Positions 41,646 through 45,213 of a DNA stretch of 64,000 bases are shown here, piece by piece. Under the pieces are notes generated by a model. That model had not been told where the DNA came from and searched no databases. It saw only the letters and a list, made by a program, of their open reading frames with translations. The stretch is taken from positions 2,408,392-2,472,391 of the forward strand of contig NZ_KI911783.1 of NCBI RefSeq assembly GCF_000515415.1, in the 5' to 3' direction. The stretch's first letter is position 1. The number at the start of each line of letters is the position of its first letter. Both the position numbers and the translations under genes were made by a program. The stretch comes from Bradyrhizobium sp. WSM1417. GTDB lineage: Bacteria; Pseudomonadota; Alphaproteobacteria; Rhizobiales; Xanthobacteraceae.

Positions 41646-43189
41646 ACGCGCTGTCCGAACAGATCCTTTCCGAATTGCGCCACCTGCTGAGCGAGATGAG
41701 CGACGGCGGCAGCGTCGGTCCGTCCGTCTACGACACGGCGCGAGCTCTCCAGTTCCACGGCAACGTCACCGGTCGGCAGGACGCATACGCGTGGCTTATC
41801 GCGCAGCAACAGGCCGATGGCGGATGGGGAAGTGCGGACTTCCCGCTGTTCCGCCATGCGCCCACGTGGGCGGCGTTGCTGGCATTGCAGCGTGCCGATC
41901 CTCTTCCCGGCGCTGCCGAGGCAGTGCAGGCTGCAACCCGGTTCCTCGAGCGCCAGCCCGATCCCTACGCGCATGCGGTGCCGGAAGACGCGCCGGTCGG
42001 CGCGGAGCTGATCCTGCCGCAGTTTTGCGGCGAGGCCGCTTCCTTGCTGAGCGGCGTGGCGTTTCCGCGGCACCCTGCGCTGGTGCCGTTGCGGCAAGCT
42101 TGCCTAGTCAAGCTGGGAGGGGCGACGTTGCCGAGCGGCCATCCGTTGCTGCACTCCTGGGAAGCCTGGGGCACGTCGCCGACCACCGCATGCCCGAATG
42201 AGGACGGCAGCATCGGCATCAGTCCGGCGGCCACCGCCGCGTGGCGTGCGCACGCCGTGACACAGGGGATCACGCCGCAGGTCGGGCGCGCCGACGCGTA
42301 TCTGCAGGCGGCGTCGCGAGCGACACGCGGCGGCATCGAAGGCGTCGTTCCCAACGTCTGGCCGATCAATGTGTTCGAGCCATGCTGGTCGCTCTACACC
42401 CTGCATCTGGCCGGGCTGTTCGCGCATCCCGCGCTCGCCGAGGCGGTGCGCGTGATCGTCGCGCAGCTCGACGCCCGCCTGGGCGTGCGCGGTCTGGGGC
42501 CGGCCTTGCACTTCGCGGCCGATGCGGACGACACCGCCGTTGCGTTGTGCGTCCTGCGCCTTGCAGGCCGCGATCCGGCGGTCGATGCGTTGCGCCATTT
42601 CGAAATCGGCGAGCTGTTCGTCACCTTCCCCGGCGAGCGCAATGCCTCGGTGTCGACCAACATTCATGCCCTGCATGCGTTGCGACTGTTGGGAAGGCCC
42701 GCCGCCGGCACCAGCGTCTACGTTGAGGCCAATCGCAACCGCCACGGTGTATGGGACAACGAAAAATGGCACGTTTCGTGGCTGTATCCCACCGCGCATG
42801 CGCTCGCTGCGCTGGCGCAAGGCAAGCCCCAGTGGCGCGAGGAGCGCGCGCTGGCGATGCTGCTGCAGGCGCAGCGCGACGACGGAGGCTGGGGCGCCGG
42901 TCGCGCGTCCACATTCGAGGAAACCGCCTATGCGCTGTTCGCGTTGCATGTGATGGACGCGAGCGAAGACCCGACAGGGCGCCGGCGCATCGCGCAGGCG
43001 GTGGCGCGTGCGCTGAAGTGGATGCTCGCCCGCCATGCGGCGCATGCATTGCCGCAGACGCCGCTGTGGATCGGCAAGGAACTGTATTGCCCCACCCGGG
43101 TCGTGCGCGTGGCCGAACTCGCCGGGTTATGGCTGGCGCTTCGTTGGGGGCGGCGCGCTCCGGCCAAGCGAGCAGGAGCGACGCCATGA
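41642..43189 (+). CDS. cps: ent-copalyl diphosphate synthase
   Basis: Class II diterpene cyclase that protonates GGPP and closes the bicycle to ent-copalyl diphosphate. 515 residues, the known size for the rhizobial enzyme. The class II acid motif DxDD appears as D294-A-D296-D297 followed by TA. Two QW-like repeats fit the beta-gamma barrels: [16 protein letters not shown] near residue 55, and [20 protein letters not shown] near 412. Start GTG 41642 is chosen because AAGGAACATCCCGC precedes it and similarity begins there; the frame is open for another 208 codons upstream that belong to the GGPP synthase region. It ends in an ATGA overlap with kaurene synthase. Confidence 0.93.
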
Positions 43190-44172
43190 TCGAGACCGAA
43201 CGCGCACTGCAGCAGGTGCTGGAGTGGGGGCGTTCCCTGACCGGGTTCGCCGACGAGCATGCCCTGGAAGCGGTCAGGGGCGGCCAGTACATCCTGCAGC
43301 GCATCCACCCCAGCCTGCGCGACACCAGCCCCCGCTCCGGCCGCGATCCGGACGACGAAATGCTGATTGTGGCGTTCTATTGCGAACTGGCGCTGCTGTT
43401 CTGGCTCGACGATTGCAACGACCTTGGCCTGATCGCGCCGGAGCAGCTCGCCGCGGTGGAGCAGGCGCTGGGGCAGGGCGTGCCATGCGCGCTCCCCGGA
43501 TTCGAGGGCTGCGCTGTGCTGCGCGCTTCGCTGGCCGCGCTCGCCTACGATCGTCGCGACTATGCTCAGCTTCTCGACGATACTCGGTGCTACTGCGCGG
43601 CGCTGCGCGCCGGACACGTGCAGGCGGCAGGGGCGGAACGCTGGTCCTACGCCGAGTACCTGCACAACGGCATCGATTCGATCGGCTACGCGAACGTGTT
43701 CTGTTGCCTGTCGTTGCTGTGGGGGCTGGACATGGCGACCTTGCGCGCGCGTCCGGCGTTTCGCCAGGTCCTGCGGCTCATCTCCGCGATAGGGCGCCTC
43801 CAGAACGATCTGCATGGACGCGACAAGGACAGGTCGGCCGGCGAGGCTGACAACGCGGCGATCCTGCTGCTGCAGCGCTATCCGGCTATGCCTGTGCTGG
43901 ACTTCCTCAACGACGAGCTGGCCGGCCATACGCGCACGCTGCACCGGGTGATGGCGGAAGAACGCTTTCCCGCGCCGTGGGGACCGTTGATCGAGGCCAT
44001 GGCGGCCATTCGCGCGCAGTACTACCAGACTTCGACCAGCCGCTACCGCAGCGACGCTGCGGGGGAGGCCTGCGTGCGCGGGCCTGAACGCGCGGGAGGC
44101 GGCGGCGTGCGCGCGCTGCCGTTAGTCCGATCCGACGCAACGCTGTCGCCCGATTCGACGGATGGAGCGAGC
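43186..44172 (+). CDS. ks: ent-kaurene synthase, frame continues into the next gene
   Basis: Class I terpene synthase that ionises ent-copalyl diphosphate and closes ent-kaurene. The metal-binding motif is DDCND at D75-D79; the second motif is [14 protein letters not shown]. Start ATG 43186 follows AGCAGGAG and overlaps the copalyl synthase stop (ATGA). Rhizobial kaurene synthases are about 300 residues. Here no stop codon occurs where one is expected: after [16 protein letters not shown] the frame runs through a glycine- and serine-rich stretch ([13 protein letters not shown]) directly into the isomerase, so the full open frame is 43186-45213 (675 residues). The coordinates given end at the codon before the isomerase ATG. 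Either a fusion protein is made or the isomerase is also started independently. Confidence 0.9.
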
Positions 44173-45213
44173 ATGAGCGACACCACCCTGAGCCGGCGCA
44201 AGGACGACGATCTGGAGATCGTGCTGGATCGGCGAACGGCGCCGGCCACGGTTGCCGCCGGCTGGGAGTACATCCGTTTCGAACACTGCGCATTGCCCGA
44301 GTTGGACCTGACGCAGTTCGACCTGCGCGCCTCGCAGCTGGGCAAGACCATGCGTGCGCCGCTGCTGATCGGCTCCATGACCGGCGGCATGCCACGCGCC
44401 GAGGCCATCAACCGGCATCCGAGCGAGGCAGCGCAGGCTTTGGGGATCGCCATGTGCGTCGGTTGGCAGCGCGTGAGCCTGCAGTCCCGCAACTCCCAGG
44501 GGCTGACGCCCGCGCTGCGCCGCCTCGCCCCAGACATTCCCTTGCTGGCCAATATCGGCGCCGCGCAACTGCGCGACGCCGACGGCCTGGACCTGGCGCG
44601 CCGGGCGGTGGATGCCGATGGACTTATCGTCCACCTCAATCCGCTGCAGGAAGCGGTACAGCCGGAGGGCGACCGCACCTGGCGCGGCGTCCTGGCGCAG
44701 ATCGCTCGCGCCGCGCGCAGCCTGGGCGTACCGATCGTGGCCAAGGAAGTGGGGTCGGGCATGTCCGCCTCGGTGGCGTGTGCGTTCGTCGAGGCGGGCG
44801 TGGCGGTGATCGATGTCGCGGGCGCCGGCGGCACCAGTTGGGCCGCGGTGCAGGGCGAGCGCGCCCGCGATGCCGCCGACCGTGCAGTGCCGATGGCGTT
44901 CGCCGATTGGGGGATTCCGACCCCGGCCAGCGTGCAGGCGGTGCGTCGGGCGCTGCCAACGGTGAAGCTGATTGCGTCGGGCGGGATCGGCGACGGCGTC
45001 GACGTGGCCAAGGCCATCCGCCTGGGCGTCGACATCGCCGGGCAGGCGGCCGGCGTGCTGCGCGCGGCGACGGTGTCCACCGAGGCGGTTGTCGCCCATT
45101 TCGAGATCGTCATCCGCCAGTTGGCCGTCGCCTGTTTCTGCACCGGCTCGGCTGATCTGGCGGCGTTGCGTCAGGCGCGCTTGTTGCCCTCGGCGGATCT
45201 GCCCGCCGGTTGA
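44173..45213 (+). CDS. fni: Isopentenyl-diphosphate delta-isomerase type 2 (FMN-dependent)
   Basis: 346 residues, normal length for the type 2 enzyme, which interconverts isopentenyl and dimethylallyl diphosphate using reduced FMN and so balances precursors for GGPP. Seen: substrate-binding [10 protein letters not shown] near the start, LLIGSMTGG, the segment [33 protein letters not shown] and the FMN phosphate loops AGAGGTSW and [11 protein letters not shown] 44173 has GATGGAGCGAGC before it, a fair ribosome binding site, so separate initiation is possible although the upstream frame of kaurene synthase is open right into it. Last gene of the operon; 90 bp beyond it the transposase remnant begins. 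Confidence 0.93.

Follow-up and report, generated by a model that had tools for sequence, protein, structure and literature searches.

The analysed stretch, hereafter the window, comprises 64,000 nucleotides of the forward strand of Bradyrhizobium sp. WSM1417, the genome of which is a single contig of 8.05 Mb. It carries a gibberellin operon in the order P450, P450, ferredoxin, SDR, P450, prenyl diphosphate synthase, class II cyclase and ent-kaurene synthase (KS, counted as the ninth element), with the genes ahead of KS, named by their order from the literature, occupying 35121..43189 (+). The KS start codon overlaps the stop of the preceding cyclase frame (ATGA) and opens a frame at window:43186-45213 (+). 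Translation of this frame yielded 675 residues and a terminal stop and, as the preliminary description had proposed, no stop codon between the KS domain and that of a type 2 isopentenyl-diphosphate (IPP) isomerase (IDI); two neighbouring genes of the operon are thus joined in one open frame. The frame consists of an intact KS domain (residues 1-290, 43186..44055, +), a linker of 39 codons (44056..44172, +) and an open but apparently decaying IDI domain of 346 amino acids (44173..45213, +). Both the linker and the internal idi start codon with a fair ribosome-binding site, noted at the outset, are present, the latter as an ATG at 44173 with GGAG (44164..44167, +) five bases upstream.

Among PDB entries, KS best matched 4w4r, the Bradyrhizobium diazoefficiens KS blr2150 (602.7 bits, query residues 1-298), and the motifs DDCND and NDLHGRDKD, which we take to be the Asp-rich and NSE-type metal motifs, aligned with their counterparts in 4w4r. 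By whole-length homology to a solved member and by these motifs, the first half is predicted to be a bacterial ent-kaurene synthase; blr2150, however, ends unfused at 300 residues, whereas the window KS continues into IDI. The second half passes the NCBI curated model TIGR02151 with 327.3 bits against a cut-off of 281.3.

Within the operon, the second P450, ferredoxin and SDR (36416-38838) are 99.3-99.9% identical to those of the sister strain SSUT77, while identity is 98.5% for the first P450 and 96-98.6% for the genes from the third P450 onwards, a pattern that is likely a recombination mosaic. Upstream of the operon, a further P450 frame (31817-33082; nearest NCBIfam model SolI, 440 bits, below cut-off) was matched only in SSUT77 among the five loci compared, some of which may be too short.

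The ks-idi junction

Comparison of the KS end across relatives, the check suggested with the preliminary description, located the cause of the fusion in a run of G residues. The window holds five (G5, 44061..44065, +) where relatives ending KS at 300 amino acids hold six (G6), so that separate and fused junctions, otherwise near-identical, differ by one G (GCGGGGGGAGG in the separate and GCGGGGGAGG in the fused form). In G6 relatives KS stops at residue 300 with a TGA, which in the window (44085..44087, +) is out of frame, and G5 relatives run on. The window run, being one G short, places KS in the IDI frame; the cause of the fusion is therefore one base lost from the G run where the 3' end of ks overlaps the apparent ribosome-binding site and start of idi. 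Most rhizobial gibberellin operons hold the same two genes in the same order with near-identical junction DNA, but with one more G, and their KS ends at 300 amino acids where that of the window is fused. Among 112 distinct junctions, G5 was found in 18 and a run longer than G6 in none. In Rhizobium leguminosarum Vaf-46 and Vaf10 the frame is fused by a different event, an insertion at the same place. Programmed -1 ribosomal frameshifting at G GGG GGA in G6 relatives was rejected, as judged from the junction sequences it gives the wrong frame for idi.

The linker is not a novel element of the protein but corresponds to the old KS tail and the leader or spacer that precedes idi in relatives, shifted into the KS frame by the lost G. 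Its openness is unsurprising: with a G+C content of 75%, 53% of base shuffles are open, which are near even odds, since the domains are coding anyway and only about 39 codons needed to be open. The informative parts of the fusion are its one-base-indel cause and its recurrence rather than openness. The pN/pS of the linker or leader was 0.97 across 21 separate rows and 0.88 across 10 fused ones, compared with 0.19-0.32 for KS and IDI; with values near 1, hence no amino-acid constraint, the linker was rejected as a selected domain.

The run forms part of GGGGGAGG (44061..44068, +), a putative Shine-Dalgarno-like sequence, and five bases after its AGG lies a GTG (residue 297, 44074..44076, +), a candidate ancestral idi start; three Xanthomonas loci have ATG at this place. 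In separate loci, the idi frame can usually be followed without a stop from its ATG back into the 3' end of ks. Among 41 distinct separate loci with intact idi, the upstream start is in frame and open in 27, ten of which have no ATG at the downstream idi position (L116, with an ATG two codons away, is excluded from the ten). In 11 of the 41 the upstream start is out of the idi frame; idi must start elsewhere there, and the overlapping start is thus not used everywhere. Annotations of IDI proteins also differ, that of Xanthomonas bromi beginning at the upstream ATG, equivalent to the window GTG, and that of R. tibeticum (P0002) at a later start within the leader. These junction sequences are best explained if idi originally started within ks, with the G run as a probable part of its ribosome-binding site. 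As a separate observation, in five Rhizobium loci (L109, L110, L112, L114, L126) and in L080 and L093 GGG or ATC stands in place of the downstream ATG; as idi is intact in these loci, its start must lie further upstream.

Distribution and recurrence of the fused frame

The fusion is not peculiar to the window strain, since other relatives carry the fused frame too. A search of 195 genomes of the genus found matches to the query in 69, with the whole frame open in seven; the same G5 junction was seen in SSUT77 (L009/L129) and in six other full-length stop-free genomes. Among 56 named loci with a readable junction (drawn from 80 kept, of which 15 lacked KS and nine were a different chimera), 44 were separate, eight fused, and four continued past residue 303 without one open frame to idi. 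Altogether, the full open fused frame occurs in nine distinct Bradyrhizobium loci, the window included.

On a KS tree of 107 rows and 855 columns, built by a quick method, the fused state required eight changes and G5 likewise eight. The tree is weakly resolved, with 49 of 102 inner branches open and a very long lone Lonsdalea row. A single origin of G5 was rejected for the 16 testable rows, those with full KS, as their placement in one clade did not fit the data (AU p 4.9e-6); a clade of the 11 main Bradyrhizobium G5 rows did (p 0.9). The remaining five rows are Bradyrhizobium sp. CSA207, G186, Mesorhizobium WSM3626 and WSM3862, and Rhizobium sp. Pop5, the last of which (G5, fused) has a KS row identical in the tree to that of R. 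vallis (G6). Gene conversion of the junction could mimic such independent origins. In the genus sample, idi was intact in 8 of the 12 G5 rows but in only 1 of the 57 others, seven of the eight belonging to the group that fits one clade; idi was broken or gone in the other four G5 rows, and 35 of the 69 genus rows carry another, interrupted run. Separately, in L028, L031 and L062 KS passes its usual end via other indels and idi is undetectable, and the KS tail seems free to vary.

In a search of 5.8 billion proteins, none of the 7996 candidates scored covered more than 55% of the fused query. Plasmid records contained at least three matches in a single piece, among 60 of 190 matches listed. For the fused plasmid loci of Pop5 and Vaf10, the gene table, which omits pseudogenes, lists fni and nothing over KS, and neither KS nor fni appears in it for Bradyrhizobium sp. 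187 (G5, broken idi). Given such an annotation gap over fused loci, counts of strains without KS or idi may be wrong.

Sequence change in the isomerase half

The window IDI belongs to the same fold family as the type 2 IPP isomerases of known structure (1vcf, 2zru) and shares most of their motifs, but differs from them by Trp for Ser, Gln for Glu and three missing residues. Residue 98, Trp in the window (TGG, 44464..44466, +), is the Ser of GSQR and residue 227, Gln in the window (CAG, 44851..44853, +), the Glu of GGTSWAAVE in all 67 homologues under 420 amino acids, 20 of 87 proteins having been left out by length; the window IDI thus has neither of these two invariant residues. Counted from the alignment, the sites correspond to Ser96 and Glu229 of the Sulfolobus shibatae enzyme (2zru), in which a helix spanning residues 95-102 is reported to close over the substrate (PMC3509576). 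In addition, a 9-base in-frame deletion at 44614..44615 (+) removed in the window alone an Ala-Leu-Glu present in fused relatives. At 300 conserved columns the window IDI shows 19 departures, compared with 0-5 in the eight other fused Bradyrhizobium IDIs.

Since the split from SSUT77, the terminal branch of the window IDI has accumulated 16 nonsynonymous and three synonymous changes, against 4:15 on the stem shared by both strains (Fisher p 2.3e-4) and against 10:17 for KS, GGPS and CYP117 together on the same terminal branch (p 0.0023). In the latter comparison CYP112 was uncounted because references were too few, no changes fell on the window branch in CYP114, ferredoxin or SDR, and CPS (12:12) did not enter the Fisher test as its frame included upstream non-coding bases. 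The 16 of 19 nonsynonymous changes fit neutrality (p 0.09-0.14) and also allow adaptive change. When stem and tip were taken together, the nonsynonymous to synonymous counts of IDI in the window lineage (19:19) and in the other lineages (54:76) showed no significant difference (p 0.36); the relaxed constraint is seen only if tip and stem are analysed separately. The IDI of SSUT77 is itself frameshifted by a one-base deletion (6:6). With the 16:3 ratio on the tip, constraint in the window strain was thus not found on both halves of the fusion. As a counterpoint to decay, the window IDI still exceeds the TIGR02151 cut-off and stays in frame. The substitutions, the deletion and the branch counts point to an IDI half that has lost constraint and is probably an inactive isomerase. 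A new fused cyclase and isomerase had been proposed from the window alone: a ks-idi fusion was indeed not found in literature searches or in the available parts of the gibberellin-operon papers PMC7273348 and PMC6278637, but an enzyme with two functions is unsupported in the window genome because IDI has lost invariant residues, three further residues and, since the sister split, constraint.

Structure prediction of the fusion reached a mean pLDDT of 59.2, with the IDI half mostly at 70-95 and the KS half below 50, the latter because KS was represented in the alignment by only seven near-identical rows; the low-confidence KS half makes the predicted structure uninformative on the linker or on domain joining.

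Interpretation of the fusion

We consider it probable that a one-G slip recurs where ks and idi overlap, that the fused frame arose by accident and that the IDI of the window strain has decayed; for this strain, such a packing accident is more likely than a new two-in-one enzyme. The two genes would be adjacent, probably overlapping members of the gibberellin operon, in which the G6-AGG run at the 3' end of ks probably serves as the idi ribosome-binding site and the original idi start (ATG in Xanthomonas, GTG in rhizobia) would lie just within the end of ks. Loss of one G lets KS read beyond its former TGA, across the idi leader and into idi, in one frame of 675 codons. Ribosomes finishing KS would then have to add a C-terminal extension of 385 residues, and internal starts could still give separate IDI. 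The KS tail presumably tolerates this read-through, in which case the slip would recur and persist with no need of selection. The IDI half being probably inactive, the main expected product in the window strain would be a working KS with a dead-weight IDI domain.

A bifunctional KS-IDI selected in Bradyrhizobium, in which fusion would fix the protein ratio or hold IDI in a pathway complex, is less readily accepted and we regard it as unlikely. The open frame in nine distinct loci, the good preservation of the eight fused IDIs besides that of the window, IDI dN/dS values of 0.16-0.21 (L002 versus L003 and L002 versus L005) and the association of intact idi with G5 all speak for it, as do the neighbour fusions of the same operon, of which those of fd with sdr work according to the sections available of PMC7273348 and PMC6278637. 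That association is, however, mostly the property of one clade, G5 is found also without idi, the linker is free of constraint, and in SSUT77 and Bradyrhizobium sp. 187 IDI carries a frameshift even though the junction is fused. Since IDI works upstream of GGPP, and KS two steps downstream of it, direct channelling between them would not be expected. Nonsynonymous to synonymous counts of single IDI branches were 2:6 (L002), 2:5 (L003), 2:2 (L005), 7:12 (L006), 4:1 (L004) and 5:1 (L075), the last two of which, small as the numbers are, show no constraint. The IDI sequences of the other fused Bradyrhizobium look far more intact, and in those strains the fusion may work. The more specific proposal that the main Bradyrhizobium clade with a preserved IDI half (spp. 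139, 164 and 141, for example) keeps a genuine bifunctional KS-IDI by selection, and that the window lineage lost the second activity again, we likewise hold to be improbable; if true, it would help to explain the survival of idi in this clade while most relatives lost it.

The run might alternatively act as a toggle, with slippage during DNA synthesis or transcription switching between separate and fused products within a population. The change from G6 to G5 is indeed repeated, and near-identical pairs have runs of different length (B. hipponense L008 and CSA207 L015; R. vallis L114 and Pop5 L183), but six Gs are short for phase variation, no G7 occurred in the 112 junctions and many lineages have an interrupted run; we therefore find a toggle very doubtful. 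A sequencing or assembly error hiding a stop in the linker, raised initially as a reservation and conceivable at a homopolymer, is highly implausible because SSUT77 and six other genomes of the genus, from different assemblies, share the G5 junction.

The ks-idi junction, which we read as an accidental slip at a gene overlap, extends the set of known gibberellin-operon fusions. The in-frame fusions cyp114-fd and fd-sdr are published, and idi is reported in 2 of 40 Bradyrhizobium strains, in the parts available of PMC7273348 and PMC6278637. Like ks-idi, these fusions join operon neighbours in frame, more than once, in rhizobia; they concern other genes and Fd-SDR activity was tested, whereas the ks-idi of the window arose by a one-base slip and its second half looks dead. 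The pair may also resemble the overlapping coupled gene pairs or frame-transition genes described in PMC3711429, which have a downstream start beside the upstream stop and homologues fused or separate by an indel. Where a G-rich ribosome-binding site covers the 3' end of the gene before it, losing a single base would be enough to fuse the two, and in this one operon that has happened repeatedly.

Other arrangements of the operon end were also observed. In nine Mesorhizobium-type loci (L135-L143), a KS fragment (about residues 36-116) leads directly in frame into IDI residues 16-317, and this chimera appears to be a relic of a deletion at the end of the operon; in L137:3665-4999 it forms an open frame of 444 amino acids, with the same length and printed sequence as P0004 (88 contigs). 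Furthermore, one Mesorhizobium metagenome-assembled genome has two contigs (L076 and L084), both carrying the end of ks and an intact idi, which represent either two operon copies or a mixed bin.
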